From positions 1-41,325 of the forward strand of contig JBBECS010000009.1 in assembly GCA_040881685.1 (NCBI GenBank): a stretch of 41,325 bases of DNA, read 5' to 3'. Shown here one piece after another: positions 5,215-33,413 of the stretch (positions within the stretch are counted from its first letter, which is position 1; every line of letters begins with the position of its first letter). The DNA comes from Acidimicrobiia bacterium (GTDB lineage Bacteria > Actinomycetota > Acidimicrobiia > IMCC26256 > PALSA-555). Under the pieces are notes generated by a model, which was not told the origin of the DNA, searched no databases, and saw only the letters and a list, made by a program, of their open reading frames with translations. Made by a program: the position numbers and the translations under genes.

Positions 5215-5220
5215 TATCTT
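5215..5220 (+). promoter_or_regulatory. leaderless -10 element for the GT2/methyltransferase fusion
   Basis: TATCTT is followed by eight bases and the GTG at 5229. This favours 5229 over a TTG at 5220, which would overlap the hexamer itself. Confidence 0.45.
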
Positions 5221-5228
5221 TGCCCGGC

Positions 5229-7487
5229 GTGACACCCCCGCTCTCTCTCGTCGTTGTCGCGTACAACATCGAACGCGAGCTCCCGCGCACGCTGCAATCG
5301 CTCTCCGTCGGGTACCAGCGCGGGGTGAACGCGTCCGACTACGAGGTCGTCGTCGTCGACAACGGTTCACCTACACCCGTCGATCCGTCGGTGTTCGATG
5401 GGCTCGACGGTCAGTTTCGCTTGGTGCGCATCGACGACGCGTCGCCGTCGCCAGCACCGGCCGTCAACCGCGGGTTGCGGGAGGCGCGCGGCGACGCCAT
5501 CGGCGTGCTGGTCGACGGGGCGCGTCTGGTGACACCAGGCTTCGTGCACTACGCGCTCGTCGGCAGTCGAGTTCACCCGAGGTCAGCGGTCGTGTCGCTC
5601 GGTTGGTACCTCGGCTTCGACTTCCAGCGCTACGCGCTCGACGCGGGCTGGACCAAGGCCGACGAAGATGCGCTCCTCGAGTCGATCGACTGGCCGGCCG
5701 ACGGCTACCGGCTGTTCGAGATCAGCTCCCTCGACGAGTCTTCCGTCGAGGGTTGGTTCCTCGGCGTCTTCGAGAGCAATGGCTTGTTCCTGCCGGCGAG
5801 TGTGTGGACCGAGCTCGGTGGCTTCGACGAGCGCTTCGCGTCACCGGGCGGCGGATTAGTGAACCACGACACACTTCAGCGCGCCGCTGACCGAGACGAC
5901 CTGGGCTGGGTCATCCTCCTCGGAGAGGGCACGTTCCATCAGATCCACGGCGGCATCGCGACAAACGTCTCGGCTGGAGCGATCGACGAGAAGATGCAGC
6001 GTTGGCGGGCCGAGTACGAGGCGATCAGTGGGCGCACGCTCTACGAGCACCCACCGCTGCCCGACCCAATCTACTTGGGGCCGCTCCCAGAGGTGCTGTG
6101 GCCGCGGTTCGGATACTCCGTGAGCACGATGTTGCACGCGACGAAACGGCTCCCACCGCCGGTGATCCCGCCAGTGCCGCTTCCCGATCCCGAAACCGAT
6201 TCGAACGAGTTCGCCGCGCAATGGTCGGCGCGCGCCGGCGCGGCGGCTCGTCAAGGACGCGCGACCGAAGCGCAGCACTTCGCCCGCTTGGCTCGAGCCG
6301 CTGATCCGTCGGCTCGCGACGTAACCCCACTTTTGTCGTGCATCGCGACGCACCGTCCGCTCGAGCAACTCTCGCGTCCGGAGCGGGCGCAGTTCTTTCT
6401 CGATAATGGGCTCGCGTGTGAAGGGGCCGGTGCCGTCGCGGATGCTGAAGCGCATTTCCGCGAGGCGTTGACAAACGAGCCGCGCCTCGCGGCCGCATAC
6501 GAAGGGCTGAGTCGGCTCCGAATGCCGGGGCCGGGCTATTACGACCGGATTTCGCGCATACACGAGCAGTTGAACCCCGCCTCGTACCTCGAGATCGGCG
6601 TGTTCACCGGTGAGTCGCTTGCGCTCGCTCGCCCACCGACGGTTGCCATCGGGGTCGACCCCGATCCACAGATCCGTGAGCTGATCTCCGTCGAGCTCCA
6701 CCTCTATCGGGAGACATCGACCCAGTTCTTCCAGCGCGACCTGCGGTCAGTGTTCGGAGGCGGCGCGCCCTCCCTTGTGTTCATCGACGGTTTGCACGAG
6801 TTCCCTGCGGTGCTCGAGGACTTTGCCAACGTCGAAGCGGTCTCCGACCCGGGCACGATCGTGCTTTTACACGACATGATCCCGTTCGACGAGACCACAC
6901 AACAAGCCGAGCGGGTGCACGAGTTCTACACCGGCGACGTGTGGAAGCTCCTGCACTGCTTGGCCGATGTGCGTCCCGATTTGTCGTGGTTCACGATCCG
7001 AACGCCGCCGAGCGGGCTCACGGTGGTCGGTGGTCTCGACTCGACGTCGACCGTGCTGCGGGACGAGTACGAGAAGTTGGTGGAGCGCTTCGCGAGCCTC
7101 ACGTTCGACGACGCGCTGAACGTACCGGGTCCGGTGCTCGAGAACGAGTGGTCCGTGGCTGCCGACAACCTCCGTCGCCTGCGAGAGGCCAATGCACCCG
7201 TCGATTCCGCTCACGCGGTCGGCCCGGCGGGTTCCATGGTGGAGGCTCGTGACGCCGAGCAACTGGCGCGACGGATCCGGGACCTCGAGACGGTCGACGC
7301 CGCTCGCCGCAAGGAGCTTGCCGCCCTCAAGCGGGCTCGTCGTGAAGCTTCCCTCGGAGTCGTGCTTGACCCAGAGTCTGCGCAAGCCCAGCTCGAGCTG
7401 ATGCGGAACACGAAGCTCTTCCGGTGGACACGTCCGCTCCGCGCGTTGTACTCGCGACTTCGCGGTCGCGGTCGCGGCAGCGAATGA
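5229..7487 (+). CDS. GT2 glycosyltransferase - TPR - SAM methyltransferase fusion
   Basis: About 752 residues carry three parts. Residues 1 to about 300 are a family 2 glycosyltransferase (LSLVVVAYN start, VVVVDNGSP, then an aromatic-rich acceptor region). Residues about 325-440 are helical repeats of TPR type (QGRATEAQHFARLARAADP, then DAEAHFREALTNEPRLAAAY). Residues about 450-640 look like a class I SAM-dependent methyltransferase (YLEIGVFTGESLALA, IGVDPD, LVFIDGLHEF, LLHDMIP). The tail is coiled coil and ends in NTKLFRWTRPLRALYSRL, a signature also seen at the ends of other surface-glycan glycosyltransferases. It likely adds a sugar and methylates the same or a neighbouring unit at the inner membrane face. 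The following methyltransferase gene overlaps its stop by four bases. Confidence 0.8.
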   Translation: MTPPLSLVVVAYNIERELPRTLQSLSVGYQRGVNASDYEVVVVDNGSPTPVDPSVFDGLDGQFRLVRIDDASPSPAPAVNRGLREARGDAIGVLVDGARLVTPGFVHYALVGSRVHPRSAVVSLGWYLGFDFQRYALDAGWTKADEDALLESIDWPADGYRLFEISSLDESSVEGWFLGVFESNGLFLPASVWTELGGFDERFASPGGGLVNHDTLQRAADRDDLGWVILLGEGTFHQIHGGIATNVSAGAIDEKMQRWRAEYEAISGRTLYEHPPLPDPIYLGPLPEVLWPRFGYSVSTMLHATKRLPPPVIPPVPLPDPETDSNEFAAQWSARAGAAARQGRATEAQHFARLARAADPSARDVTPLLSCIATHRPLEQLSRPERAQFFLDNGLACEGAGAVADAEAHFREALTNEPRLAAAYEGLSRLRMPGPGYYDRISRIHEQLNPASYLEIGVFTGESLALARPPTVAIGVDPDPQIRELISVELHLYRETSTQFFQRDLRSVFGGGAPSLVFIDGLHEFPAVLEDFANVEAVSDPGTIVLLHDMIPFDETTQQAERVHEFYTGDVWKLLHCLADVRPDLSWFTIRTPPSGLTVVGGLDSTSTVLRDEYEKLVERFASLTFDDALNVPGPVLENEWSVAADNLRRLREANAPVDSAHAVGPAGSMVEARDAEQLARRIRDLETVDAARRKELAALKRARREASLGVVLDPESAQAQLELMRNTKLFRWTRPLRALYSRLRGRGRGSE

Positions 7488-8338
7488 CGGCGAACCTGCG
7501 ACGGAACGCACCGGCCGACGACGCATCGCGCCTTCGGGATCTCTACCTCACGATCCTCAAGCGAGCAGTCATGCACACGCTCTACACGCCGCTCGACTCA
7601 CGGTCGATCAATGACTATCTCGATCCCGAAGATGTTCGGCAGTCGGTACTCGGCCAGATCGCGCGCGGTGAGCTCGACCTCAACGATCAGGAAAGTCTTC
7701 GCCGCCAGCGGGAGATGGGCCGTGACTGGCCGCAGTTCGGTCAGACCATGGTCGGACTCGACCGGCTCGACAACATCCAACAGTGCTACGAGCGCATTCT
7801 CGATGACGGCATTGCTGGCGATCTCATCGAGGCTGGCGTGTGGCGCGGCGGTGTCGCGATCTTCATGCGCGGCTTGCTCGAGGCCTACGGCGATCGCGAT
7901 CGCGTCGTCTACGCAGCGGACTCGTTTCAAGGACTCCCGTCACCGAACGCCGACGAGTATCCAGCTGACGAAGGAGACCGCTTCCACACGTTGGACGCCC
8001 TCGCAGTCTCGCGCGACGAAGTAGCGAACAACTTCTCGCTGTATGGCTTGCTCGACGAGCGGGTGCAGTTCCTCGAAGGCTGGTTCAAGGACACGCTCCC
8101 GACCGTGCACGATCGAACCTGGTCCATCATCCGTCTCGACGGCGACATGTACGAGTCGACGATGGACGTCTTGACACATCTCTATCCGCAACTCTCGGTT
8201 GGTGGGTTCCTCATCGTCGACGACTTCGCGCTGGCGCCCTGCAAGCAGGCGATTGAGGACTTTCGTGCCGCGCACGGCATCGCCGAGCCGATCGAAGAGG
8301 TCGACTGGACCGGCGTGTTCTGGCGCCGGACGCGGTGA
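7484..8338 (+). CDS. TylF/MycF-type O-methyltransferase
   Basis: This 284-residue protein belongs to the macrocin O-methyltransferase (TylF) family, which uses SAM and a divalent metal to methylate sugar hydroxyls. The fold is visible in DLIEAGVWRGGVAIFMRG (SAM-binding loop), VYAADSFQGLP, IIRLDGDMYESTMDVL (metal-binding Asp-Gly-Asp) and GGFLIVDDFA (second metal site). The ATG at 7484 overlaps the upstream stop (ATGA), so translation is probably coupled, and longer in-frame starts would lie inside the previous gene. It ends only four bases before the opposing TylF-type gene. Together with the fusion upstream it predicts methylated sugars in the product. Confidence 0.88.
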   Translation: MTANLRRNAPADDASRLRDLYLTILKRAVMHTLYTPLDSRSINDYLDPEDVRQSVLGQIARGELDLNDQESLRRQREMGRDWPQFGQTMVGLDRLDNIQQCYERILDDGIAGDLIEAGVWRGGVAIFMRGLLEAYGDRDRVVYAADSFQGLPSPNADEYPADEGDRFHTLDALAVSRDEVANNFSLYGLLDERVQFLEGWFKDTLPTVHDRTWSIIRLDGDMYESTMDVLTHLYPQLSVGGFLIVDDFALAPCKQAIEDFRAAHGIAEPIEEVDWTGVFWRRTR

Positions 8339-8342
8339 CGCC

Positions 8343-9242
8343 CTAAGACTCACGCTCCTCGCGCACGTAGTCCCAGAGGCCATAGAAGTCCTTCCGGGTG
8401 TAGGCGACGCTCGTCGGGTCGGTGGACCAGTCGAACGGTCCAAGGTAGTGCTGACCCACGCCCACGCCGGTGCCCGCGCCCATGAGGCCGGGTGGCGGCG
8501 CGTCGAAGTACTGCTTCCAGAACCGCTCCGAGAAGAAGAGCGCGCAGTAGTCGAGGTACATGAACTCGTCGACGAACACGTAGCCCTGTTCGGTGAGGCG
8601 CGGCCAGAGATTCACGATGCAGTCGTGGAGGCTCGCCTGAAAGTCGACGTCCAGGAAGCACAACACGACGGGTTCGGTATGCGAGGGAAGCGTCTCGTTG
8701 AACCATCCCTTACGGAACTGGCATCGCCCGATGACCCCATGACGTCGCACGTTCTCCTGGACACGTTCGAGATCGCCGCGGAACATGCTTCGACTCTCGG
8801 GTTTGGCATGGTGGTCACCGGGCTCGGCGACAGGAAGACCCTCGAACGAGTCGTACACGATCAGGTCGCGTCCGACGATGTCGCAGATCAGCGACAGGTT
8901 GACCGTCGAGCCGCCGAGCCAACAGCCGCACTCAACGACGACACCGGCCGTCTCGGGCGGGATCTCGAGAAGCTTCGCGGCCATCGCGAGGTGCGCCTTG
9001 TACGAGGTGCCCGTCCTCACCTTTCTGGTGTTGCGGTACATGCGGTAGGCGAGCTTGAACTTCCTCCGCCAGTTCATCTGATAGCTGGGATGGATCCGGT
9101 GCTTGTCGAAGCCCCAGCGGGCGATGAGAAAGAGGGAGAGCACGTTGTAGACACCTCGGGCTGAACGAGTGGGGATCGCCAGCGAGCCCCACTCATGTTC
9201 AACCCAACCGTCCTGGCGATCGTCGATTGGCTCGGATTTCAC
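8343..9242 (-). CDS. TylF-type O-methyltransferase, last gene of the glycan operon
   Basis: This 299-residue SAM-dependent O-methyltransferase of the TylF family shows VVECGCWLGGSTVNLSLI (SAM loop), IVYDSFEGLP, LCFLDVDFQASLHDCI (acid metal ligands) and GYVFVDEF. The GTG at 9242 is chosen because AAAGG lies seven bases upstream; the frame is open much further only because it shadows the gene before it. It follows the first PhyH gene by 11 bases and is the distal gene of the minus-strand operon. It differs clearly in sequence from the plus-strand TylF protein, so the two probably methylate different positions or sugars. Confidence 0.87.
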   Translation of the reverse strand: MKSEPIDDRQDGWVEHEWGSLAIPTRSARGVYNVLSLFLIARWGFDKHRIHPSYQMNWRRKFKLAYRMYRNTRKVRTGTSYKAHLAMAAKLLEIPPETAGVVVECGCWLGGSTVNLSLICDIVGRDLIVYDSFEGLPVAEPGDHHAKPESRSMFRGDLERVQENVRRHGVIGRCQFRKGWFNETLPSHTEPVVLCFLDVDFQASLHDCIVNLWPRLTEQGYVFVDEFMYLDYCALFFSERFWKQYFDAPPPGLMGAGTGVGVGQHYLGPFDWSTDPTSVAYTRKDFYGLWDYVREERES

Positions 9243-9253: not shown

Positions 9254-10255
9254 TCAGTATGCGATCGGTAGCGCCGTTGATGGGTACGCCGATGGCGCAG
9301 CGAACCACGCTTCGATCGCGTATCGCGCCCGGGTCATACCGGGATCGACGGCAGTCCGGTGCAAGAGCATGTGATCGAAGAGCAATGCGTCGCCGGGTGC
9401 GAACATCGGACGCATCGCGCCACCAAGCTCTCGCACCGTGCCTTCTCCGACGCTCCAGTCGAACGTGGCACCGTTGGTCCCGACCTCGACGATCGAGTCG
9501 AGTCGTCGGCCGACGATGTCGAGACCGGGAGCATCCAGTCCGCAGTGCGAGAGCGCGAGCCACACATTGATGCTGTGGATGTGTGCGCCGAGGAACGCGC
9601 CGTCCTGGTGCCAGTCCGGGGTGCCCGTAGGTTCGACCCGGCGCAATGTCCACTTGCTCGCGAGGAGCAGCGGCGCTTCGCCCAGATACGACGTCACGAG
9701 GTCGCGGACGCCGATCTCGTCGAACGCCTCGATCACGTCGAAGATCGTTCGCGGCGAGTCGACGGCCAGGATGCCTTGGCCTTCGTGGATCCACTCGCGT
9801 GGGACCTCTTCGCCGGCCCGAGGCTCGAAAGGTACGAACCATGGGGCCGTGTCGGACGCCGGCGCACCCTTCACGTACGCGTCGTACCCTGCGTAGGCGC
9901 GGTCAATGTCGGTGACGAACTGGTCGACCCGTGGTTGTTCGATGAGCCCTCGAACGAGGAGGCATCCGTGGTGCAGGATCCCGCTCCGCAGCACCTTCGT
10001 CGTGAGCTGGTCACGCGTGACCTCCGGAATCCCACGAACATGGCGGAATCGGTCTCGGGTCTTGGATGGCCAACGTCCACCCCGGTGAGGGGGACCCTCG
10101 GGGATCGGTGCATCCCGTCGCAGCGCCACGAGGCGGGCCTCGACGTCAGGGTTACGCCGACGCCGGTTCTCGCTCGTCAACGCATTGATTGCTTCGCGGA
10201 AGCGCCCGGCAGCCACGAGCTCGTCGATAGTGATGCTGTTCACGCTCGACGCCAC
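9254..10255 (-). CDS. phytanoyl-CoA dioxygenase (PhyH) family protein, copy 1 of 3
   Basis: This 333-residue protein is an Fe(II)/2-oxoglutarate oxygenase of PhyH type. The iron ligands are visible: His216 and Asp218 in DWHQDGAF and His299 in DHMLLHRT, with Arg311 as the likely 2-oxoglutarate anchor. Residues 10-50 form a helical TPR-like hairpin (ELVAAGRFREAINALTSEN) found in all three copies and not part of the usual PhyH core. The start is GTG at 10255; a second GTG four codons on is possible. PhyH enzymes hydroxylate lipids, natural products and sugar or amino-acid moieties. The setting between sugar genes suggests hydroxylation or desaturation of a glycan or its lipid, which is inference. 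Confidence 0.85.
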   Translation of the reverse strand: MASSVNSITIDELVAAGRFREAINALTSENRRRRNPDVEARLVALRRDAPIPEGPPHRGGRWPSKTRDRFRHVRGIPEVTRDQLTTKVLRSGILHHGCLLVRGLIEQPRVDQFVTDIDRAYAGYDAYVKGAPASDTAPWFVPFEPRAGEEVPREWIHEGQGILAVDSPRTIFDVIEAFDEIGVRDLVTSYLGEAPLLLASKWTLRRVEPTGTPDWHQDGAFLGAHIHSINVWLALSHCGLDAPGLDIVGRRLDSIVEVGTNGATFDWSVGEGTVRELGGAMRPMFAPGDALLFDHMLLHRTAVDPGMTRARYAIEAWFAAPSAYPSTALPIAY

Positions 10256-10286
10256 CGGGCGCAGGATATCGCAGGACGAATCCGGC

Positions 10287-11303
10287 TCAGTAGGCGATCG
10301 CGAGCTGATCAGCCGGATACGACGACGGCGCGGCGAACCAGGCTTCGATCGCGTAGCGATCTTGCGTCATGCCCGGGTGCACACCGGTGCGGTGCAGGAG
10401 CAGGTGGTCGAAGAGCAGCGCGTCGCCGGGCTCGAAGATGGGCTGGACGATGCCCTCTGGGGCGAGCTGGCTGACCGTCGATGCACCGACACTCCAATCG
10501 AACCCGGCGCCACTCGTGCCAGGGTCGATGATCCCGTCGAGCCGCCGCCCGACGAGGTCAAGGCCGGGCGCGTCCACTCCGCAGTGTGAGAGTGAGACCC
10601 AGACGTCCACACTCCGGATCCCGGCGCCCATGAACGCACCGTCCTGGTGCCAGTCCGGGTTGCCGCGTGGCTCGACGCGACGGAGGGTCGTCTTCATCGC
10701 GAGCAGCAGCGGTTGTTCCCCGAGGTAGTCGGTCAGCAGGCTGCGCATCCCGATCTCCTCGAACGTCTCTACGACGTCGAAGAACGCCCGTGGTGAGTCG
10801 GCCGCCAACACGCCGTCACCGCCACGAATCCACTCTCTGTGGATCTCGTGGTCCGGCCCGGGGTCGAAGCGCACGAACCACGGTGCAGTCTGTGACACCG
10901 GCGCTCCGTTCGCGTGGGCGTCGTATGCCGCGAACGCTCGGTCGATGTCGTCGACCAGCTGGTGGACCCGCTCAGGGCCGATGAGCCCGCGGACCAGGAG
11001 GCAGCCGTGGTGGAGGATCCCGCTGAGCAGCAACTCGGAGGTGAGCTGGTCGCGGGTCACCTCGGGGATGTTCGCCTCGTTGCTGAAGCGATCCGGCACG
11101 TGTGGAGGCCACGACGCGGCAGCGGCCGCCGTCGCGCCTCCCAAACCATCACGACGAAGCTCCAGCAGGCGCGCCTCGATCTCGGGATGGGGTCGCACTC
11201 TGTTCGCGTTGGTCAGGAGATCGATGGCCTCGGCGAATCGACCCTCGACGACGAGCGCCTCGGCGTGCCGACGGACTCGTGCGTGGCGGCGATGGATCAG
11301 CAA
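10287..11303 (-). CDS. PhyH family dioxygenase, copy 2 of 3
   Basis: This paralogue of 338 residues keeps the same layout: N-terminal helical hairpin (GRFAEAIDLLTNANR), conserved RDQL..GILHHGCLLVRGLI, the HxD iron motif in DWHQDGAFMG, the shared SLSHCGVDAPGLDLVGRRLD segment, and the distal HRTGVHPGMTQDRYAIEAWF. The start is uncertain. TTG at 11303, 14 bases after the previous stop with GGA upstream, fits the spacing and leaves the helical hairpin intact; the longer open frame overlaps copy 3. Copy 1 lies 31 bases downstream. The three proteins are similar enough to be tandem duplicates but differ in the loops around the active site, so different positions or substrates are likely. Confidence 0.82.
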   Translation of the reverse strand: MLIHRRHARVRRHAEALVVEGRFAEAIDLLTNANRVRPHPEIEARLLELRRDGLGGATAAAAASWPPHVPDRFSNEANIPEVTRDQLTSELLLSGILHHGCLLVRGLIGPERVHQLVDDIDRAFAAYDAHANGAPVSQTAPWFVRFDPGPDHEIHREWIRGGDGVLAADSPRAFFDVVETFEEIGMRSLLTDYLGEQPLLLAMKTTLRRVEPRGNPDWHQDGAFMGAGIRSVDVWVSLSHCGVDAPGLDLVGRRLDGIIDPGTSGAGFDWSVGASTVSQLAPEGIVQPIFEPGDALLFDHLLLHRTGVHPGMTQDRYAIEAWFAAPSSYPADQLAIAY

Positions 11304-11317
11304 GTTACGAGTTCCAG

Positions 11318-12328
11318 TCAGTAGGCGATCGCGATCTGGTCGTCCGGGTAGTTGGATGGGGAAGCGAACCATGCTTCGATCGCGTATCGGTCGCGTGTCA
11401 TCTCTGGACGCAACGCGGTGCGATGCAAGAGCATGTGGTCGAACATCAGCGCGTCGCCCGGCGCAAAGACCGGGCTTGCCACCTCTCCGCGCGCGACCTC
11501 TTCGGCAACGCTGTCTGCGACGCACCAGTCGAAGCGCGCATCCTCAGTGCCGACGGCGACGATCTGGTCGAGTCGACGGGACACCAAGTCGAGGCCGGGT
11601 GCGTCGACGCCGCAGTGTGACAACGAGAGCCAGATATCAACGCTGCGGATATCGCGCCCCATGAATGCGCCATCCTGGTGCCAGACCGGGTAGCTCTCCT
11701 CTTCGCGCGCACGCCGCAGCGTCCACTTCTGGGCGAGCATCACCGGTGGCTCTCCCAAAAAGCCGTTCACGAGGTCCCCGATACCGATCTCCTCGAACGC
11801 CTCGATCACGTCGAACAACACGGGCGGTGAGTCGACGGCGAGCACGCCACCGCCCGCGCGTCCCCATTGCCGGGGGATGATGTGTCCAGGCCCGGGGTCG
11901 AAGGGCACGAACCACGGCGTCACCTCGGCGAGCGGTGTGCCCTGCGCGTGGGCATCATGAGCCGCGATCGCATGCTCGATGTTGTCGATCAGGCCTTCGA
12001 CGCGCGGTTGACTGGCAAGACCGCGGACGAGGATGCATCCGTGCCGGAAGATCCCACTGCGGAGCGCATCGGGCGTGAGCTCCCCTGGCGTGATCTCGGG
12101 CGGATTGGCGGCGCCCCGGAAGCGGTCCTTGGTCTTGGGAGGCCATCTCCGCGGGCCGCTCGACGGGCCGAGGTGCGCGACAGCCGCAAGCCGGAGCTCG
12201 ACCAGGCGCACTTCGATTCCCGGGTCGCGGCGCGCGCGGTTGGCGATGGTCAGAGCCTCGATGGCCTCGAGCAGCCGGCCTGACTCGACAAGCTCGTCCG
12301 CCAACGTTCGGGGATCACGCGCAGTCAC
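11318..12328 (-). CDS. PhyH family dioxygenase, copy 3 of 3
   Basis: The first transcribed of the three paralogues, 336 residues. The iron motif is in VWHQDGAFMG, the distal ligand in DHMLLHRTALRPEMTRDRY, and the N-terminal hairpin reads LVESGRLLEAIEALTIANR. The GTG at 12328 overlaps the stop of the membrane protein gene by four bases (GTGA), which fixes the start and points to coupled translation. Compared with copies 1 and 2 it carries a Cys in FDWCVADS where the others have FDWSV, and a shorter, acidic insert before the HxD motif. All substrate statements are inference from context. Confidence 0.85.
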   Translation of the reverse strand: MTARDPRTLADELVESGRLLEAIEALTIANRARRDPGIEVRLVELRLAAVAHLGPSSGPRRWPPKTKDRFRGAANPPEITPGELTPDALRSGIFRHGCILVRGLASQPRVEGLIDNIEHAIAAHDAHAQGTPLAEVTPWFVPFDPGPGHIIPRQWGRAGGGVLAVDSPPVLFDVIEAFEEIGIGDLVNGFLGEPPVMLAQKWTLRRAREEESYPVWHQDGAFMGRDIRSVDIWLSLSHCGVDAPGLDLVSRRLDQIVAVGTEDARFDWCVADSVAEEVARGEVASPVFAPGDALMFDHMLLHRTALRPEMTRDRYAIEAWFASPSNYPDDQIAIAY

Positions 12329-13782
12329 GGTGTAGCTTCGTCCCGATCGGCGCCGGCACGCGCCGGCCGACACACGATACCGAGCATCTCCTTCGGCGCG
12401 GGGATGCCGAAGCGGCGGGGCAGGGCGCCATCAGCCATGAGGTCTTGGAGGAGCGCGACGTTGATCTGTGGTGCAAGGTCGGGGCTCGGCATGGCGTTCC
12501 CGGCCACGCGGCGTCCGCTGCCGCAACCGTCGTCCAGCACGGTCACCACCTGTTGTACGGAAGCCTTCACCTGGGCGGCCCAGTCCTCGCTGAACTGTCG
12601 GACCGGGTTGAACTGCCCGAGGTTCAACACGAAGACGCCGACCAACCCGGCCACCGCCGCGGCGCCAGCGACTCGGTTCAGCTGCTCCCGGGGTGAACGC
12701 AACGAGGCGACGATCGCCGGCGCGAAGGCCAGCAGCAGGAACATCGCGATCCATTGCACGTACCTGGATCCGGGAAGCTGTGACGGAGCGATGAGGAACG
12801 AACGTCCTCTTGCGAGCGCGGCGGTGCCGAACGCGGCCGCGGCGAGCCCGGCGCCGAGTCCGATGATGGTGCGCCGGTCGAGACGGTGTCGTAGCGCGCC
12901 GAACAGCACACAACCCGTGGCGGTGGCAAGGGCGATGGCTCCTACCCATGTGCGATCAAGTGGGATCGTCGGATTCGCCGGCGTGAGCTCGACGACTGAG
13001 CGCGTCTCACCGCCCCCGATGAGTCCGCCCGCCGAGACGAGGAACAACCTCGTCGCGAACTTGAACATCGTGTCGAACGATGCCGACACCTGAACTCCCT
13101 GGTCACCGAACATCAGCCACCCAAGGCCGACCAGCGCTGGAGCCCAGAGGCTGGCAACCACGAAACGCATCGGCCAGAGGAAGGCGAGGAGAACGGTCAC
13201 GAACACGCCGCCGATGATCGCGACTCCGCTGTCCGCCGCAATCGCGAGTACCAATAGGGCCGCGATCAACGTCGCGGACTTCGGTGTCCTTTGATCACCC
13301 AGTACCACATACGCCGCGAAGAAACACGCGGCGAGGCAGAAGTTGATCCCGAGCTGGAACTCCCACACCACATTTTGTCCACCGGGTCCGAAGTACGTGA
13401 CGACGAGTGCCGCGAGAAGCGCGAGCAATGTGGGTACGCCCAAACGGCGCAGCACCAGGGCAATTCCGATCTGCATCGCCGCAACGCTGGCCATGAATGC
13501 AACCCAGATGAGCTGGTGCCCCTCCAGCCCGAACCACGCACGTTGCAGCCGGTACAAGATGTACGACGGCACCTCGAGGTGCCCTTGATGACCGGAGAAC
13601 ATCTCGGTCCACGAACCGAGCGACTTGTCGATCATCGTCCACTCGTCGTAGTAGTACCAATGGTCCTGGTACCACGTCGCGATCCAGAGCATCCCCGCGA
13701 GCGGGAACGCGACCCACACCGCGATTCGCATGGCATCGGCGCGAGACGTCGAGCGCAGCCGAGCGACGAACCCTCCGATCAC
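12325..13782 (-). CDS. polytopic membrane protein, GT-C glycosyltransferase-like
   Basis: The 485-residue protein has about ten hydrophobic segments. After the first (residues about 18-36) comes an outside loop with DHWYYYDEWT; an acidic pair in the first loop is typical of GT-C glycosyltransferases that use polyprenyl-phosphate sugars. A large soluble C-terminal part (from about residue 410) has three cysteines. I cannot name the family with certainty; flippase or polymerase functions are alternatives. The start is GTG at 13782, 13 bases after the previous stop; an ATG 17 codons in (MRIAVWVAF) is also possible. Its place between the epimerase and the dioxygenases suggests transfer of a sugar to the growing glycan outside the membrane. 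Confidence 0.72.
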   Translation of the reverse strand: MIGGFVARLRSTSRADAMRIAVWVAFPLAGMLWIATWYQDHWYYYDEWTMIDKSLGSWTEMFSGHQGHLEVPSYILYRLQRAWFGLEGHQLIWVAFMASVAAMQIGIALVLRRLGVPTLLALLAALVVTYFGPGGQNVVWEFQLGINFCLAACFFAAYVVLGDQRTPKSATLIAALLVLAIAADSGVAIIGGVFVTVLLAFLWPMRFVVASLWAPALVGLGWLMFGDQGVQVSASFDTMFKFATRLFLVSAGGLIGGGETRSVVELTPANPTIPLDRTWVGAIALATATGCVLFGALRHRLDRRTIIGLGAGLAAAAFGTAALARGRSFLIAPSQLPGSRYVQWIAMFLLLAFAPAIVASLRSPREQLNRVAGAAAVAGLVGVFVLNLGQFNPVRQFSEDWAAQVKASVQQVVTVLDDGCGSGRRVAGNAMPSPDLAPQINVALLQDLMADGALPRRFGIPAPKEMLGIVCRPARAGADRDEATP

Positions 13783-13795: not shown

Positions 13796-14830
13796 TCAGA
13801 TCAAGCCGTTGTCGATCGCGTCGACAACCCAGGGCACGACCTCGTCAAGCATCTCGTCGAGCGTCGTCGTTGCCTCGAAGCCGAGCACGCGACGTGCCTT
13901 CTCGACCGAAGGGACCCGCTTCTGCACGTCGTACTCGAACGCCCTTCCCGTGACGTACCGAAAGGGGGCGTCGGGACCGCGGAGTCGATGCCAGATGCTC
14001 TCCGCGAGCTCCAGCACCGTCGTCGACTGCGCTGTCGAGAGGTTGAAGTCGTCGTTGAGCGCGTCGGGGTGTTCCATCGCGGTGACGGTGCCCTTGGCCA
14101 GGTCACCGCCGTAGGTGTAATGACGGATCTGGTTGCCCTCGCCGAGGATGTGGAGCGGGTCCTGGCCCTTGACGATCTTCTGGATGAGGTCCGGCACGAC
14201 GTGGCTCATGGCGAGCTTGATGTTGCCGCTCAGCACCTCGACGTCGGATCGGGCCCGGATCTCGCCGATGCCCACGCAGTTGAACGGCCGGCAGATCGTG
14301 TACGGCAGCTCGTACTGGGTATGGGCAGCTCGCGCGTAGTACTCGACCGCGAGCTTCTGGAAGCCGTACGAGGAGATCGGCGGCGGGATCTCGCGCTCTT
14401 GGCCCTCGTACGACGGCCACGAGTCGGCCGACTCGAAGACCATCGACGAGCTCATGTACGTGACCTTGCGAAGGCGTCCTTCCCGATGCGCGACGATCGC
14501 GGCGTCGCACGACGAGGCCATGATCCGCTCGTTGGTCGCCAGGAGGTCGTACCCGAACGTGTGAAAGTAGGAGATGCCACCGATGAGCGCGGCCCCGGCG
14601 ATGAAGTGGTCGCAGTTGCGCAACGTCTCGGTCATCAGCTCGACATCGCGGGCGTCGCCCTCGATCAGCTGGTAGTCGGGATGATCGTCGTAGGACTTCG
14701 CGATCTTCCCGTACTTGGAGTGGTTGTCGATGCCGATGACCTGGTAGCCGCGCGCCAGCAGCTCCTCGACGACGTATCCGCCGATGAAGCCGGCTGCACC
14801 GGTCACGAGGACCCTCTGGTCGCCGGTCAA
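13796..14830 (-). CDS. NAD-dependent epimerase/dehydratase (extended SDR)
   Basis: This 344-residue nucleotide-sugar enzyme has the Rossmann motif GAAGFIG at residues 11-17 and the catalytic pair Tyr155/Lys159 in SSYGFQK, with SSSM upstream supplying the catalytic Ser. GIDNHSKYGK after the second strand fits NAD binding. Extended SDR enzymes of this kind epimerise, dehydrate or decarboxylate UDP-, GDP- or dTDP-sugars. The TTG at 14830 overlaps the stop of the GT2 gene by four bases (TTGA). The long frame beyond it overlaps that gene and is a shadow. Pairing with a nucleotide-sugar dehydrogenase hints at an epimerised or decarboxylated uronic acid, but the exact sugar cannot be told. Confidence 0.85.
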   Translation of the reverse strand: MTGDQRVLVTGAAGFIGGYVVEELLARGYQVIGIDNHSKYGKIAKSYDDHPDYQLIEGDARDVELMTETLRNCDHFIAGAALIGGISYFHTFGYDLLATNERIMASSCDAAIVAHREGRLRKVTYMSSSMVFESADSWPSYEGQEREIPPPISSYGFQKLAVEYYARAAHTQYELPYTICRPFNCVGIGEIRARSDVEVLSGNIKLAMSHVVPDLIQKIVKGQDPLHILGEGNQIRHYTYGGDLAKGTVTAMEHPDALNDDFNLSTAQSTTVLELAESIWHRLRGPDAPFRYVTGRAFEYDVQKRVPSVEKARRVLGFEATTTLDEMLDEVVPWVVDAIDNGLI

Positions 14831-15579
14831 CGTGCTTCTCCCGTGGCCCTTCGCAGCTGACCGATCGACAGCTTCCGCCCGAACGCGAAGCGGTACCACC
14901 GCAAGTAGCGCGGGAGCCATCGCAGCACCTTGAAGTTCGACGTGCCCTTCGCGCGCTCGAGCCAGATCGTGGGGATCTCCGCGGTTCGGAGCCGGAGTCG
15001 CCGTGCCTTGGCCACCAGCTCGATCCCGATCTCGAAACCGGTCTCCGACTGGATGCCCACATCGCGTACGAAGTTGGTGGAGTACGCCTTGAACGAGTTC
15101 GTCGCGTCGCGCGTGCCGACTCGCGCGAGCCAGTACAGCGTCAGCCCCGCGAAGTTCGACAGGAAGGTCTTGAACGGTGATCCGCCGATCTGCTGGCCAC
15201 CACTCATGTAGCGAGAAGCCGCGGCGATGACGACACCTCGCTCCACGAGCTTGCACAGTTCGTCGATCTGCTCGGCGTCGTCACTGCCGTCGGCCATCGT
15301 CACGACGGCGACTGGCGCGCGCGTCTGGTCTATGCCGCACCGGATGGCGCGCGCCGGCCCAGCCCCGAGCGTGTTCATGACCGGGATGACGCGGGAGTCA
15401 GCAGCCGAGTACTTCTCGAGGAACGGGAGTGTGGTGTCGGCATCGTCGTCGTACACGACCAGGATCTCGAACGGCAGCTCGACCCCCTCGACGATGCGGT
15501 CGAGGCACCAGATGATGGTCTCGCCTTCGTTCTTGACCGGGATCACCACCGAGACCCGCGGTGTTTCAAGCTCGTTCAT
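14827..15579 (-). CDS. GT2 glycosyltransferase, dolichyl-phosphate-mannose-synthase-like
   Basis: This 250-residue family 2 glycosyltransferase starts with RVSVVIPVKNEGETI and carries VVYDDDADTT (metal/nucleotide-binding acidic residues), ADGSDD and a conserved SRYMSGGQ. There is no C-terminal membrane pair, so it resembles the soluble DPM1 type that moves a sugar to polyprenyl phosphate. That donor would suit the GT-C-like membrane protein encoded two genes downstream. The ATG at 15579 overlaps the preceding stop (ATGA). Substrate specificity is not visible. Confidence 0.85.
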   Translation of the reverse strand: MNELETPRVSVVIPVKNEGETIIWCLDRIVEGVELPFEILVVYDDDADTTLPFLEKYSAADSRVIPVMNTLGAGPARAIRCGIDQTRAPVAVVTMADGSDDAEQIDELCKLVERGVVIAAASRYMSGGQQIGGSPFKTFLSNFAGLTLYWLARVGTRDATNSFKAYSTNFVRDVGIQSETGFEIGIELVAKARRLRLRTAEIPTIWLERAKGTSNFKVLRWLPRYLRWYRFAFGRKLSIGQLRRATGEAR

Positions 15580-16778
15580 ACCTGGACGCCGCGGTCTCGC
15601 AGGTTCCAGATGTCCACAATCGGGACCTCGGTCTCGATGTCACGGTACGCGCGGTGCGGTGCGCCGATGATGAGGAGATCGGCCTCGCGCAGCACTTCGT
15701 CGAGGGGCACGAGCGATGGATCGATGGTCACGTAGGGATCGGTGGTCAGCACGCGTTCGGCCTTGAACCCCAAGATGCGCTTCAGCTTGTAGCTGAGGCT
15801 CGACCGAATGTCGTCGGACTCGGCCTTGAACGACATCCCGAGGATGCCGACGGTCATGCTCGCGAGGTCGTACCTGCGCTCGAGCCGGGCCACCACGTAG
15901 AGAGGGAGGCCTTCATTGGTGTTGACGCTGGCCTGACCGAGCTGGAAGTTGTTGTTGTTGAACGCCGCGAGCTGCATCGTGTCCTTGAACAGGCAGGGTC
16001 CGGCGGCAAATCCGGCGCGTGGCAGGTCTGCGGCCCGGGGGTAGTTGTAGGTGAGGGCCGAGCGGATGCGCTCGTAGTCGAGGCCGAAGTCGTTGGCCAT
16101 CATGTAGAGCTGGTTGGCGGTGGCGAATTTGATGTACCGCCAGGTGTTCGTGAACAGCTTGGCAAGCTCCGCTTCCTCCGGCTCCAGGTACACCATGTCG
16201 TCGGTCAGCACGCGCAGCAGCTTCGTGGCGCGCTCGGAGGCCCGTTCCGTGCGAGCCGCGATGATCTGGGGTAGCTCACAGAGCTCGGTCATCGCCTCAC
16301 CCTCGGCAATGCGCTCCGGACAGAAGGCGACGTCGACGTCGACCCCGAGGCGTGCGACGAGGTTCTCCACCATCGCGGTGACACCGGGGTACACGGTGCT
16401 CCGAAGTACGAGAAGCTGGCCGTCGACCAGGCTCTCGGCGATCTCCGCGATCGCCACCTGCATCGCCTTGAGATCGGGGTTGAGGTGCTCGTCGATCGGG
16501 GTGCCGATCACGACCACGACATGCTCCGCGTGGGCAACGAGTGCCGGGTCGGTCGTCGCCCGCAGACGGCCCGCCTCGAGCACGCGTGCGAGCACCTTGA
16601 CCGCGCCGCGCTCCTCGAAGGGCAGGATCCCGGCGTTGACCTTGTCGACCGCGATCGCGTTGACGTCGAAGAGTGTGACGTCGAGCCCGCGATCTGCGCT
16701 TACGAGCGCGAACGGAAGCCCCACGTGACCACAGCCGCCCACCACCGCGACGTCGACCGAGAAGCGCGAACTGCTCAT
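15576..16778 (-). CDS. nucleotide-sugar dehydrogenase (UDP-glucose/UDP-ManNAc dehydrogenase family)
   Basis: This 400-residue enzyme oxidises the C6 alcohol of a UDP- or GDP-sugar to a uronic acid in two NAD-dependent steps. The NAD fold is at residues 11-24 (GGCGHVG), the catalytic Cys262 sits in AGPCLFKDT, and FTNTWRYIKFATANQ is the typical dimer helix. The C-terminal domain (from about residue 310) has the usual GMSFKAESDDIRSS. The ATG at 16778 overlaps the stop of a 13-residue leaderless uORF. It leads the glycan operon. A UDP-GlcNAc 2-epimerase gene elsewhere in the window (32226-33350) could supply UDP-ManNAc, but the link is only inference. Confidence 0.87.
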   Translation of the reverse strand: MSSSRFSVDVAVVGGCGHVGLPFALVSADRGLDVTLFDVNAIAVDKVNAGILPFEERGAVKVLARVLEAGRLRATTDPALVAHAEHVVVVIGTPIDEHLNPDLKAMQVAIAEIAESLVDGQLLVLRSTVYPGVTAMVENLVARLGVDVDVAFCPERIAEGEAMTELCELPQIIAARTERASERATKLLRVLTDDMVYLEPEEAELAKLFTNTWRYIKFATANQLYMMANDFGLDYERIRSALTYNYPRAADLPRAGFAAGPCLFKDTMQLAAFNNNNFQLGQASVNTNEGLPLYVVARLERRYDLASMTVGILGMSFKAESDDIRSSLSYKLKRILGFKAERVLTTDPYVTIDPSLVPLDEVLREADLLIIGAPHRAYRDIETEVPIVDIWNLRDRGVQV

Positions 16779-16883: not shown

Positions 16884-17573
16884 GTGAGTGGGCCCGATAC
16901 GTCGAGCGACGTTCCCGGCATCGACTACCAACGCCTGTACGCGTATCGGTTCCGGCACGTCGACCAGGGGTCCCGACAGGCCGTGTGGAACGAGCTCGCG
17001 CCCACGATCCACCGATGGCTCGGTTCACCGCAGCGAGTGCTCGATCCGGCCGCGGGTCGGGGCGAGTTCATCAACGCAGTCGCGGCGCGCGAGCGTTGGG
17101 TCGTCGACAACATCGAGTACGACGAGACGGTACGGGACCCCGGTGTGAAGGTGGTCATCGGCGACGCACGGTTCGTGGATCTGCCCGAGGCGCACTTCGA
17201 CGGTGTGTTCGTGTCGAACCTGCTCGAGCACCTGCCGACGCAGGACGACGTGGCTCGGTTCCTCCGCCGCATGCGCGGCTGCTTGACGCCGTCGGGTCGC
17301 ATCGCCGTGATGGGGCCGAACTTCCGTTACTGCTCGCGGGACTACTTCGACTGCGCCGACCACACCCTGGCTCTCACGCACGGTGCCGTCGAAGAGCACC
17401 TGTACAGCGCAGGCTTCGAGATCACACGAACGATCCCGCGCTTCATCCCGTACTCGTTCAGGAGCCGCATGCCCCAGTCGCGGCTGCTCGTGCGCGCGTA
17501 CCTTCGCATGCCGGTCGCCTGGCGACTGCTGGGCAAGCAGTTCCTGGTCCTCGCGGAGAACCCGGCCGCGTAG
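16884..17573 (+). CDS. class I SAM-dependent methyltransferase
   Basis: This 229-residue protein has the methyltransferase motifs VLDPAAGRGEFI (motif I, Asp-Pro variant), VVIGDAR, FDGVFVSNLLEHLP and LTPSGRIAVMGPNFRYC. The last segments resemble the UbiE/COQ5 type. The GTG at 16884 follows TAGCAT by seven bases. An upstream ATG in the same frame at 16815 would begin inside the uORF and across the promoters, so it is less likely. The gene diverges from the glycan operon and ends 16 bases before the opposing acyltransferase gene. A role in methylating the same glycan or its lipid carrier is plausible but not shown. Confidence 0.83.
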   Translation: MSGPDTSSDVPGIDYQRLYAYRFRHVDQGSRQAVWNELAPTIHRWLGSPQRVLDPAAGRGEFINAVAARERWVVDNIEYDETVRDPGVKVVIGDARFVDLPEAHFDGVFVSNLLEHLPTQDDVARFLRRMRGCLTPSGRIAVMGPNFRYCSRDYFDCADHTLALTHGAVEEHLYSAGFEITRTIPRFIPYSFRSRMPQSRLLVRAYLRMPVAWRLLGKQFLVLAENPAA

Positions 17574-17589: not shown

Positions 17590-19737
17590 CTACGACGCGG
17601 GCTTGCCGTTCGAGCTCGCCAACAGCTCGACGATCTGCGATGCCATGGCGGCCGCGACCCGGCGTGCCCCGCCGGCATGGGTGATGGCGCAGTGTGTGCC
17701 GTCCCACGCCGGGTCGTCGCAGAAGTGGAAGCCATCGACGTAGCGGACGCCGATGGTGCCGTCGGCAGTGCACCCGGGCTCGCCGCCGGACAGGCAGGGC
17801 ATCCGCCACTGGTACGCGCCGTTGGCGTCGCGAATGAAGATCCCGGGATCCAGCACGGTGATGTGGTCGGGATCCTCGGCGGCCCAGAGCTGGAACTGAG
17901 GGGTCTGCGCGGGCGCGTCGACGGTCACGCCGTTGCCGACCACCTTGTAGACGTTGGGATCGGGCGAGGGCACCACGTTGGGGACGATCGGCGCGAGGTA
18001 CACCTCGACATCGGCGGCCCTCCAGATGCGGATCGCTTCGCGGACTTGCAGCTCCCAGTCCTTGTTGCACGTGCTGTTGTCGAAGAACCAGTCGAACGCG
18101 AACCAGATCGCGACATCGGGACGGGTCGCCGGGTCGTTCACCTGCTCGCGGAGCTTCGGCAGCAACGTGCACGGTGGGGCGGCGCTGTGGGCGACGCTCT
18201 CGAACGCGCCACCATGGTCCTCGACGATGGCGGCAAGGCAGGGAACCAGCTCCACGGCAACCGAGTTCCCTGCCAGCTGCACGAGGGGACGCTTTCCCTT
18301 CCCGTCGGCCGCGGGCGGTACGCCGGCCTCGACGGGTGGGGGAGTGTCGAGCGGCCCGTCACAGTGCGGTGCTGCCGCATAACCGACGGCGGTCTCCTCG
18401 CTCGAGCGCGATGGGTTCACCTTGGGCGGTGCGGCAATGGATGGGAACGCGGCCACGGGGATGGCGAGTAGCACGGCGAGGATGATCGCCGTGAGGACCG
18501 GGACGAGGCCGCGTCGGGTGGTCCAACGCGGCCACTGGCCGCGCCGGATGGGCTGCTCGACGAGCCAGTAGCTCGCGAGCGACACCGTGAGCGTGATGAC
18601 GGCGCGGAGCGAGAAGAGCGCGACGCCGTCGAGTCCGGTTTCGTCCTGGTTCAGCCAGACGACGACGGGCCAATGCCAGAGGTACACGCCGTACGAGATC
18701 AGCCCGAGCCCGACCAGGGGTCGGCCTTCGAACACGCGCGCTAACGGGTTCGATCCCGGTTGCGCGGCGGCGACGAGGACGACCGCGATGAGCACGGCGA
18801 TCGCGCCGTAGCCGCCTTGGTAGATCCAGGTGTCGGTGGTGTCGATGATGGCCATAGCGGTGACGAGCGCCAGTGAGGCGGCGCATCCGGCCACGATCAG
18901 CAACGTCCGCGGCGCGCGACGAGCGACCCCGAGCGCGCCGGCCGTCAACGCACCGAGCGCAGCGCCGATCAGAAGAAGGAACGCCCGCGTGTCGGTGCCG
19001 TAGTAGACGCGGTCGGGGTCGCGCGCGTCGAAGAGCGCGATCATCTCGAGCAGCGACAACGCGCCAAGCACCACGCACATCACGACGAGGGCACGGCGGA
19101 AGCGACGACGCGCGCGAGCCGTTCGTTGCGCCTTGCGGCTCTGCGTGCGCGCCACGAGCGCTCCGATCCCGGCGACTGCCAAAGGCCACAGCAAGTAGAA
19201 CTGCTCTTCGATCGCGAGGGACCACGTATGGCGCAGCGGGCTCGGCGCCTGCTGGATGAACTGCTCGACGTATGCCTGGCCCGACGCGATGAAGTGCCAG
19301 TTGGCGACATAGCCGAGTGCGGCCAGGCCGTCCTCAGCCATGTTGTGCGCGGCGACCTTCGTGGCCACCAGCAGCGCGTAGAAGCCGACCACGGCGAGGA
19401 CCAGGAACAGCGCCGGGAGCAGCCGCCGGGCCCGGCGAATCCAGAACTGCCGCAGCGAGATGCGGCGAGATCGTTCGAGTTCGTTGACCAGCAGGCTGGT
19501 GATCAAGAACCCGCTGAGCACGAAGAAGATGTCGACCCCGAGGAAACCTCCTGGCGCGATCTCGGGGGAGAAGTGAAACAACACCACCGCGAGCACGGCC
19601 ACGCCGCGCAACCCGTCGAGGGCACGCAAGTGAGCCAACTTGTTGCCATCACCGGCGGCGGGCGAGCCATGCCGAGCGCGCCGAGGAGCGCGTGCCTGCG
19701 CTGTTGTCGCGTCCTGAGTCGGTGCGTCGATGGTCAC
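17590..19737 (-). CDS. OafA/YrhL-type acyltransferase with C-terminal SGNH domain
   Basis: This membrane acyltransferase of 715 residues has an acyltransferase-3 domain (about residues 35-400) with HLRALDGLRG, the catalytic-type His55 in VLFHF, GVDIFFVLSGFLI and ten or so membrane helices. An extra helix near 410-430 leads to an outside SGNH-like domain (about 480-715). That domain has DGFHFCDD near its end, the usual Asp-x-x-His block, but block I reads AGNSVA (Asn491-Ser492) where GDS is normal. Such proteins acetylate or acylate surface polysaccharides. The GTG at 19737 lies 15 bases after the stop of the acyl-CoA dehydrogenase gene, so the two may be co-transcribed. It converges on the SAM methyltransferase gene. 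Confidence 0.86.
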   Translation of the reverse strand: MTIDAPTQDATTAQARAPRRARHGSPAAGDGNKLAHLRALDGLRGVAVLAVVLFHFSPEIAPGGFLGVDIFFVLSGFLITSLLVNELERSRRISLRQFWIRRARRLLPALFLVLAVVGFYALLVATKVAAHNMAEDGLAALGYVANWHFIASGQAYVEQFIQQAPSPLRHTWSLAIEEQFYLLWPLAVAGIGALVARTQSRKAQRTARARRRFRRALVVMCVVLGALSLLEMIALFDARDPDRVYYGTDTRAFLLLIGAALGALTAGALGVARRAPRTLLIVAGCAASLALVTAMAIIDTTDTWIYQGGYGAIAVLIAVVLVAAAQPGSNPLARVFEGRPLVGLGLISYGVYLWHWPVVVWLNQDETGLDGVALFSLRAVITLTVSLASYWLVEQPIRRGQWPRWTTRRGLVPVLTAIILAVLLAIPVAAFPSIAAPPKVNPSRSSEETAVGYAAAPHCDGPLDTPPPVEAGVPPAADGKGKRPLVQLAGNSVAVELVPCLAAIVEDHGGAFESVAHSAAPPCTLLPKLREQVNDPATRPDVAIWFAFDWFFDNSTCNKDWELQVREAIRIWRAADVEVYLAPIVPNVVPSPDPNVYKVVGNGVTVDAPAQTPQFQLWAAEDPDHITVLDPGIFIRDANGAYQWRMPCLSGGEPGCTADGTIGVRYVDGFHFCDDPAWDGTHCAITHAGGARRVAAAMASQIVELLASSNGKPAS

Positions 19738-31673: not shown

Positions 31674-32254
31674 TCGCGTTCGTACGCCACGGCGAGACGG
31701 CCACGAATCGCGCCGGTCGTCTTCTCGGGCGGGCTGACCCTCCGCTCACCGAGACTGGTCGCGCCCAGGCGTCCGCGCTCGGGACTGGCTTCGCTGCTGG
31801 GTCGCCGCCGATTGCGGTGCTCACGAGCCCGCTTCGTCGCGCCGTCGAGACCGCCACGGCCATCGCCGAACCCTTCGGCCTCGAGATCGAGCATGACGAG
31901 CGACTCATCGAGATCGACTACGGCGAGTGGGACGAGCGGGGCTTCGACGATGTGCCCGCAGACGAGATGCGCAGGTGGCGCGCCGACCCGTCGTTCGCGC
32001 CGCCGGGTGGTGAGAGCCTGACCTCGGTGCTGGCGCGCGCGGGAACGTGCGCCGAAGCGCTGCTGGAACGCGCGGGCGACGGCCTGGTCGTCGCGGTGAG
32101 TCACGTGTCACCCATCAAAGCCGCGGTGGCATGGGCACTCGGCGTCGGCCCGGAGATCGCATGGCGAATGCGGCTCGACCTGGCCTCTATCACGCGCATC
32201 GGCCCCGGTCCGAGCATCCTCTCCTTCAACGAGACCAGATTTGCGCGCGACTGA
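31670..32254 (+). CDS. histidine phosphatase family protein (phosphoglycerate mutase-like)
   Basis: This 194-residue enzyme has the RHG signature FVRHGETATNRAGRLLG with the phosphorylated His7 and a second active-site histidine in VVAVSHVSPIK. IDYGEWDERGFDD carries the catalytic acid region. In related actinobacteria a domain like this is joined to RNase HI and acts as an acid phosphatase or CobC-like enzyme; this may be that part as a separate gene. The GTG at 31670 overlaps the previous stop by four bases. Its 3' end overlaps the opposing UDP-GlcNAc 2-epimerase gene by 29 bases. Confidence 0.88.
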   Translation: MIAFVRHGETATNRAGRLLGRADPPLTETGRAQASALGTGFAAGSPPIAVLTSPLRRAVETATAIAEPFGLEIEHDERLIEIDYGEWDERGFDDVPADEMRRWRADPSFAPPGGESLTSVLARAGTCAEALLERAGDGLVVAVSHVSPIKAAVAWALGVGPEIAWRMRLDLASITRIGPGPSILSFNETRFARD

Positions 32255-33350
32255 TGAGCGCGTCGACGATTCGCGTCGAGGCATTGCCGTCGCCGAACGG
32301 CGTCTCCGCCGCGAGCTGACCCGTGGTTGGCGCGGCGGCGAGCTTCGCGATCGCGCGCTCGACGATCAACGCGGTGTCGGTGCCGACCAGCTCGAGACTT
32401 CCGGACTCCACGCCTTCGAGACGCTCGGTCTCCTCCCGCAGCACCAACGTGGGGATGCCGAGCGCGCACGCCTCTTCCTGGACACCGCCCGAGTCGGTGA
32501 GCACGAGATCGCTCGCAGCCAAAGCGTGCACCATCGATACATAGTCGAGTGGGTCAACGAGCGTCACGTTCGGAACGGCGGCGAGCACACGACGAACCGT
32601 GTCGCCAACGATTGGGTTCGGGTGGACGGGCAGCAGTACGGCGACGTCGTCGCCTCCCGATTCAGCGATCGTGCGCACCGCTTCGCACATTCGCTGCAAG
32701 GGATCGCCGAAGCTCTCGCGCCGGTGCATCGTCACCAGCACCTGTCGGTGACCGGCGGCGGTGCTCCGCTCAGGTCGTTGGTGGTGCTCGAGCACGAAAC
32801 GCACCGCGTCGACAACCGGATTCCCTGTCACGACGATGTCGGCGTCGTTCACGTTCTCATGGAGCAATGCGCCGCGTGCTCGTTCCGTGGGCGCGAAGTG
32901 CAGATCGGCGACCGTCGTGATGACGCGTCGGCTGAGCTCCTCGGGATACGGTCGCCACTTGTGGGTGGTGCGCAGCCCGGCTTCGACGTGGGCAACCCTC
33001 ACCCCGCAGTAGAACGCGGCGAGCGCCGCCGCCGCTGCGCTCACCGTGTCGCCCTGCACCACGACCCAAGTGGGCTCATCGGCCATGAGCACGGCAGGGA
33101 GGCGTTCGAGCACAGCTGCGGCGACGCTCGCCGGGTGCTGGTCTGGGCGCATGACGTCGAGATCATGATCGGGCACGATGCCGAATGGTCGGAGCCCTTC
33201 GTCCAACAGTTCGCGGTGCTGCGCGGTAGCGCAGACGCGCACTTCGATGTCGTCGCTCTCCTCGTGACGTTGTTGGAGCGCCCGCACGACGGGTCCGAGC
33301 TTGATCGCTTCGGGTCGCGTGCCCAGCACACACAGCGCTCGAACCCGCAC
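32226..33350 (-). CDS. wecB: UDP-N-acetylglucosamine 2-epimerase (non-hydrolysing)
   Basis: This 374-residue enzyme interconverts UDP-GlcNAc and UDP-ManNAc for cell-wall or surface polysaccharides. Family motifs are LGTRPEAIKLGPVV at the start, VVQGDTVSA, HVEAGLRTTHKWRPYPEE, VTGNPVVDA, HRRESFG and TDSGGVQEEA, the last binding the nucleotide. The GTG at 33350 has AGAGGGG about eleven bases upstream, so unlike many neighbours it has a leader. It diverges from a large glycosyltransferase gene, with a palindrome between them that could serve both. The product could feed the dehydrogenase of the glycan operon about 16 kb away. Confidence 0.92.
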   Translation of the reverse strand: MRVRALCVLGTRPEAIKLGPVVRALQQRHEESDDIEVRVCATAQHRELLDEGLRPFGIVPDHDLDVMRPDQHPASVAAAVLERLPAVLMADEPTWVVVQGDTVSAAAAALAAFYCGVRVAHVEAGLRTTHKWRPYPEELSRRVITTVADLHFAPTERARGALLHENVNDADIVVTGNPVVDAVRFVLEHHQRPERSTAAGHRQVLVTMHRRESFGDPLQRMCEAVRTIAESGGDDVAVLLPVHPNPIVGDTVRRVLAAVPNVTLVDPLDYVSMVHALAASDLVLTDSGGVQEEACALGIPTLVLREETERLEGVESGSLELVGTDTALIVERAIAKLAAAPTTGQLAAETPFGDGNASTRIVDALISRAQIWSR

Positions 33351-33366
33351 GACTGTTGACCCCTCT

Positions 33367-33395
33367 CACCTGGTGCTCCGTCACCACATGGTGAC
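33367..33395. promoter_or_regulatory. candidate operator: two CACC/GGTG palindromes between divergent glycan genes
   Basis: CACCTGGTG (33367-33375) and GTCACCACATGGTGAC (33380-33395) are both inverted repeats of the same TGGTG half-site. They sit upstream of the -10 at 33408 and within the leader and promoter zone of the opposite gene. This is the layout of a shared operator for a dimeric regulator, but no regulator gene is adjacent. Confidence 0.4.
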
Positions 33396-33407
33396 AACCT
33401 CGGCCTG

Positions 33408-33413
33408 TAGTCT
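33408..33413 (+). promoter_or_regulatory. -10 element for the three-domain glycosyltransferase
   Basis: TAGTCT would place transcript start near 33420, giving a leader of about 20 bases before the ATG at 33441. No clear ribosome site is seen in that leader. Confidence 0.35.

Follow-up and report, generated by a model that had tools for sequence, protein, structure and literature searches.

Several of the activities considered here are familiar from other settings. The classical substrate of PhyH is phytanoyl-CoA. Reactions with 2OG take place in the cytosol, whereas GT-C enzymes draw on lipid-linked donors at the outer side of the membrane. The rhizobial RgtE/Rgt and Arn pathways combine a UDP-sugar 6-dehydrogenase (UGD), an epimerase, a polyprenyl-phosphate-sugar GT2 and a GT-C enzyme. 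Three PhyH-type oxygenases, aviO1-aviO3, are found within the one oligosaccharide cluster of avilamycin, and related oxygenases of everninomicin (EvdO1/EvdO2) and hygromycin B (HygX) are thought to close orthoester bonds (PMC8234114). The combination of TPR repeats with a 2OG oxygenase is known from the aspartate/asparagine beta-hydroxylase AspH and from collagen prolyl 4-hydroxylase (PMC6817910, PMC12433258).

The locus described here holds three adjacent PhyH-type genes within a glycan operon, each with an additional N-terminal helical hairpin. The preliminary description of this DNA was aware of no earlier example of a sugar operon encoding three such enzymes, a view that the avilamycin cluster contradicts (PMC8234114). 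A survey of the literature on PhyH in polysaccharide or O-antigen loci returned no described case of the hairpin-PhyH family. The enzyme class is a known one; what is new is the subfamily and, in part, its setting, and the locus is not a new kind of system.

Results

Organization of the locus

The window, that is the whole stretch of DNA that was analysed, is a complete contig of 41,325 bases from a genome of 3.1 Mb in 54 contigs. A minus-strand operon runs from 16778 to 8343 in the order UGD, polyprenol-phosphate GT2, SDR epimerase, GT-C, P3, P2, P1 and TylF, with successive genes overlapping by four bases or separated by gaps of tens of bases (Table 1). As had been described, the three paralogues are adjacent, each with an HxD...H site and a common N-terminal hairpin, and they are flanked by a GT-C-like membrane protein and a TylF methyltransferase, the former recognized by its transmembrane segments and DEW motif (none of the Pfam families scores above cut-off on it) and the latter by its Pfam match. 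The start of the flanking TylF gene was taken as the GTG at 9242; the open reading frame of P2 extends to 11525, overlapping its neighbour, and its start was taken at 11303, and that of P3 extends to 12373, the chosen start at 12304 immediately preceding the hairpin. Promoter and terminator scans of the locus were uninformative.

A wider glycan region is suggested by two further features of the window, a gene for a UDP-GlcNAc 2-epimerase and one for a large multi-domain glycosyltransferase in which GT1-like and GT2 domains are combined. The GT-C-like protein with the DEW motif is duplicated in a sister species, and homologues of the GT2-methyltransferase fusion that converges on the operon adjoin hairpin-PhyH members in other genomes.

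Table 1. Coordinates of the locus and of related features (positions are those of the window unless preceded by a locus handle, L).
Feature	Position	Strand	Remarks
GT2 fused to a Methyltransf_24-type domain	5220..7487	+	converges on the operon
First TylF-type O-methyltransferase	7484..8338	+	convergent with the operon; Pfam TylF (PF05711) E=5.2e-96, 321 bits (cut-off 23)
Second TylF-type O-methyltransferase	8343..9242	-	subtype co-occurring with the hairpin-PhyH family; Pfam TylF E=6.7e-21, 75 bits (cut-off 23)
PhyH-hairpin copy P1	9254..10255	-	Pfam PhyH E=2.8e-6; hairpin coded 10106-10228
P1 2OG arginine R311 (by analogy)	9323-9325
P1 Fe ligand H299	9359-9361
P1 Fe ligand D218	9602-9604
P1 Fe ligand H216	9608-9610
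PhyH-hairpin copy P2	10287..11303	-	hairpin coded 11142-11267
PhyH-hairpin copy P3	11318..12304	-	transcribed first of the three; hairpin coded ~12179-12304
Candidate GT-C-like membrane glycosyltransferase	12325..13731	-	9 predicted TM segments; invariant DEW motif in the first loop
NAD-dependent sugar epimerase/dehydratase	13796..14830	-	extended SDR, GalE/UDP-uronate-epimerase-like
Polyprenyl-phosphate-sugar synthase-type GT2	14827..15579	-	Dpm1/ArnC-like
UDP-sugar 6-dehydrogenase (UGD, nucleotide sugar dehydrogenase)	15576..16778	-	TIGR03026, 261 bits over cut-off
Class I methyltransferase	16884..17573	+	upstream of the operon
AT3-type O-acyltransferase	17590..19629	-	upstream of the operon; weak SGNH-like match; Pfam Acyl_transf_3 E=1.1e-35
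UDP-GlcNAc 2-epimerase and multi-domain glycosyltransferase	32226-36320
Duplicated DEW-motif GT-C-like protein	L031 4840-7704		sister species
Hexapeptide acyltransferase-like neighbours	L083 11512-12734; L085 10898-11491; L086 8893-9504; L033 15814-16431; L035 15853-16473
Giant fusions	L081 11474-14878; L035 11361-14627; L037 13237-16494; L040 1512-4793		distant genomes
Hairpin-less PhyH gene in G023	L036 3220-4230
Homologue of L036 3220-4230	L081 5182-6210		G259
Two non-family PhyH genes (L007, L008)	G000:C43:30165-33253		own genome

The three oxygenase copies

By sequence, the enzymes are of the PhyH type. The three copies score 28.2, 24.4 and 21.0 bits against Pfam PhyH (PF05721), the third falling just under the cut-off of 22, and every one of the 12 aligned family members matches that profile; scores as weak as these mark a divergent PhyH branch. 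The predicted iron triad, H216 and D218 of the HxD motif and the distal H299 (P1 numbering), is invariant in 12/12 family members, as is R311, which lies 12 residues past H299 and is assigned its 2OG role by analogy. P2 and P3 are 58-64% identical to P1 (P2 being the copy at 64%), and the paralogous proteins differ by 36-42%. Codon-level divergence among them amounts to a dS of about 1.1-1.35 and a dN of 0.28-0.35, giving a dN/dS of about 0.2-0.3, so that all three copies are under purifying selection and are not chance open reading frames. Given the intact HxD...H site, the 2OG arginine and this dN/dS, all three look like working enzymes.

No TM segment was predicted in the PhyH-hairpin proteins, which are therefore probably cytosolic, and this fits the requirement for 2OG. 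The closest solved relative by profile is PtlH (2rdn, E=5e-4), and the subfamily has no NCBIfam match. An AlphaFold2 model built from 4 sequences was poor (pLDDT 42) and did not reliably yield the core fold, which in PhyH enzymes is a double-stranded beta-helix.

The N-terminal hairpin

All three copies carry, ahead of the PhyH core, a helical hairpin of roughly 42 residues with the motif A--L---GR--EAI--LT-ANR--RD---E-RLV-LR--A, which was modelled as helices 6-11, 15-28 and 32-44 with a pLDDT of about 70 within the otherwise poor model. Its likeness to TPR is weak, with an E of about 0.015-0.08 in single hairpins; in the full-length proteins no family among the TPR profiles was significant, and a comparison of the hairpin with PDB sequences gave no match. 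A profile of the hairpin produced 28 matches in the 19 family-bearing genomes, and 27 of these are N-termini of the hairpin-PhyH subfamily. The remaining match, a weak one, lies at a contig end (G052:C306) beside the matching TylF subtype and is probably a cut-off member of the family. Distant members elsewhere in the phylum retain a recognizable hairpin, and it is present on members that adjoin neither TylF nor the GT-C protein. One candidate for a hairpin outside PhyH (L014) was rejected, as by eye it resembles a luciferase-type enzyme, and the hairpin is absent from it.

The hairpin is thus a fixed part of one PhyH subfamily, which it defines and to which it is probably ancestral. It had been proposed that the hairpin is an addition that the PhyH core does not need and that it serves as a docking module. 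The first proposal is supported: the genome's 8 other PhyH proteins lack the hairpin. The second is weakened, given that the hairpin occurs on essentially every subfamily member, an outcome that the preliminary description had itself listed as speaking against its view, and on no partner enzyme, a profile search of the other proteins of the locus having found none. This universality leaves room for a role in oligomerization or substrate capping, and the hairpin probably serves in core packing, dimerization or capping on the substrate side.

Distribution and copy number

Counting the genome studied, the hairpin-PhyH family was found in 3 of 12 genomes of the same taxonomic family, in 9/58 of the order, in 15 of the 395 genomes sampled from the class and in five of the 396 sampled from the phylum; phage, plasmid and viral collections held no relatives. 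Copies number from one to three per genome. In the tree, separate duplications appear in the genus studied here, in G023 and in G710, and G274 and G196 each have several copies at different loci. The copies, for which the preliminary description inferred serial oxidation of one glycan or of its lipid carrier, have the look of duplications that arose repeatedly in separate lineages. The sister species G009 has a well supported orthologue of P3 and a weaker one of P2, which indicates that the duplication probably predates the split. In a second sister species, G010, the syntenic locus itself carries two copies, placed differently within it, one beside GT-C genes and one beside a helicase.

The eight non-family PhyH genes are a large set for 3.1 Mb, and two of them lie close together. 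In G023 an ordinary, hairpin-less PhyH gene lies beside two hairpin-bearing copies, and a homologue 64% identical to it is found three genes from the family member of G259.

Linkage to TylF and glycan genes

A link between these oxygenases and sugar genes, as first proposed, is recurrent. Of the 25 contigs bearing the family, 10 have a TylF gene at a distance of no more than 10 kb, against 1/86 contigs with other PhyH genes from these 19 genomes (Fisher 6e-7). In nine of the 19 genomes, some of them represented by very short contigs, TylF is missing from the 10 kb on either side of hairpin-PhyH. The TylF subtype adjacent to P1 occurs in 7/395 genomes of the class, six of which carry hairpin-PhyH (hypergeometric 7e-9, with kinship between genomes ignored); it has a family member nearby in the genome studied, in G274 and in G339, and adjoins the truncated copy in G052. 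Genes that recur beside hairpin-PhyH in other lineages encode GT2, TylF, a CmcI-type rhamnosyl O-methyltransferase, hexapeptide and AT3 acyltransferases and a sulfotransferase. Hairpin-PhyH is coupled in the genome to TylF and glycan genes.

Giant fusions of ~1,100 residues adjoin hairpin-PhyH in distant genomes, and that of L081 comprises Methyltransf_24, TylF, GT2 and rhamnosyl O-methyltransferase/CmcI domains. A hexapeptide-repeat acyltransferase-like protein of ~200 residues, sometimes duplicated, directly adjoins hairpin-PhyH in several lineages.

Discussion

It is suggested, with about an even chance of being correct, that the three proteins are cytosolic Fe(II)/2OG oxygenases which oxidise a surface-glycan sugar alongside O-methylation by TylF and which have been multiplied by duplication. 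The substrate would be a sugar of a surface-glycan intermediate in the cytosol, whether a nucleotide-sugar, a polyprenyl-phosphate-sugar or a lipid-linked oligosaccharide, and a ring or side carbon would be hydroxylated or otherwise oxidised either before or after methylation by the neighbouring TylF enzyme; the lipid-linked product could then be used by the GT-C protein outside the membrane. Given the cytosolic nature of 2OG chemistry, the lack of a predicted membrane segment and the use of lipid-linked donors by GT-C enzymes on the outside, the oxidation most likely takes place inside the cell. Tandem duplication in the genus would have produced the copies, which may each oxidise a different residue or position or may serve dosage. 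The sequences themselves show the family, the intact catalytic residues, the hairpin, the operon, the coupling to TylF and glycan genes and the purifying selection, whereas the catalytic activity, the sugar substrate, the order of steps and the role of the hairpin are inferred from them. Some observations speak against this reading: PtlH, the closest solved relative by profile, is a terpenoid hydroxylase and not a sugar enzyme, the neighbourhoods of the family members G196:C2 and G259:C15 are without obvious glycan genes, and TylF is not near hairpin-PhyH in nine of the 19 genomes.

It is conceivable, although unlikely, that the copies are redundant, the tandem array representing gene dosage or neutral copy-number variation of a single decoration gene. 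The variation from one to three copies between genomes and the separate multi-copy states in G023, G710, G274 and G196 are what such a process would give. However, the paralogous proteins have diverged by 36-42% at a dN/dS of about 0.2-0.3, and the separate orthologues of P3, and possibly P2, in a second species indicate that distinct copies have been kept.

Oxidation of the lipid carrier or of a glycolipid acyl chain, as by classical PhyH and the lipid A hydroxylases, in place of a sugar is a rather improbable alternative. It would agree with the founding PhyH chemistry on phytanoyl-CoA and with the presence nearby in the window of an AMP-binding acyl-CoA ligase-like gene, an acyl-CoA dehydrogenase and the AT3 acyltransferase, but the acyl-CoA genes lie outside the operon and the partners that co-occur specifically are sugar O-methyltransferases and glycosyltransferases, not lipid enzymes.

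The consistent pairing with TylF raises the thought of orthosomycin-like chemistry on a surface glycan, in which oxidation would close a ring between adjacent sugars or form an orthoester or methylenedioxy bridge from an O-methyl group. Precedents are an oligosaccharide cluster that encodes O-methyltransferases together with three oxygenases of the PhyH type (PMC8234114) and the fused methyltransferase-oxidase EvdMO1 cited in PMC10338323. Such chemistry is nevertheless very improbable here: no EvdO, AviO or HygX protein came up when PDB sequences were searched by profile up to E=10 (the inclusion of these proteins in the set is unconfirmed), and neither a polyketide synthase nor a halogenase was found among the ten flanking genes scanned. 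Equally hard to credit is a broader version in which this undescribed family acts with TylF to install a type of oxidative decoration that surface polysaccharides are not known to carry (e.g. bridged or orthoester-type sugars), with the three paralogues working at different positions. Least probable of all is that a soluble small molecule is made, such as a modified amino acid or nucleoside, with the glycan genes merely nearby: PhyH enzymes have many small-molecule substrates and several family members lie in non-glycan neighbourhoods, but in these genomes the remaining PhyH genes are, by contrast, almost never beside TylF.

Oxidation of a surface-glycan sugar, the preferred reading, concerns a step that is little charted for 2OG enzymes acting on surface polysaccharides, and such coats may carry extra hydroxyl, keto or bridged sugars. 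The family offers a coherent and testable 2OG oxygenase subfamily whose genes accompany those of sugar O-methyltransferases in many glycan loci of actinobacteria.

In comparison with known systems, the first half of the operon has the predicted activities of the RgtE/Rgt and Arn pathways in the same order, and to our knowledge neither of these includes PhyH or TylF genes. PtlH (1-deoxypentalenic acid 11-beta hydroxylase, PDB 2rdn) has a PhyH-type core in common with hairpin-PhyH but acts on a terpenoid, and the alignment covers the core only, leaving the hairpin outside. AspH and collagen prolyl 4-hydroxylase likewise place a helical TPR-type region N-terminal of a 2OG oxygenase; they contain more than one TPR repeat and act on proteins, whereas the present proteins have a single, weakly TPR-like hairpin. 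As with AviO1-AviO3 and EvdO1/EvdO2/EvdMO1, several putative PhyH-type Fe(II)/2OG oxygenases are grouped with O-methyltransferases in one oligosaccharide cluster; unlike the orthosomycin clusters, the present locus includes genes for a polyprenol-phosphate GT2 and a GT-C protein, as is typical where surface glycans are made, and its oxygenases carry the extra N-terminal hairpin.
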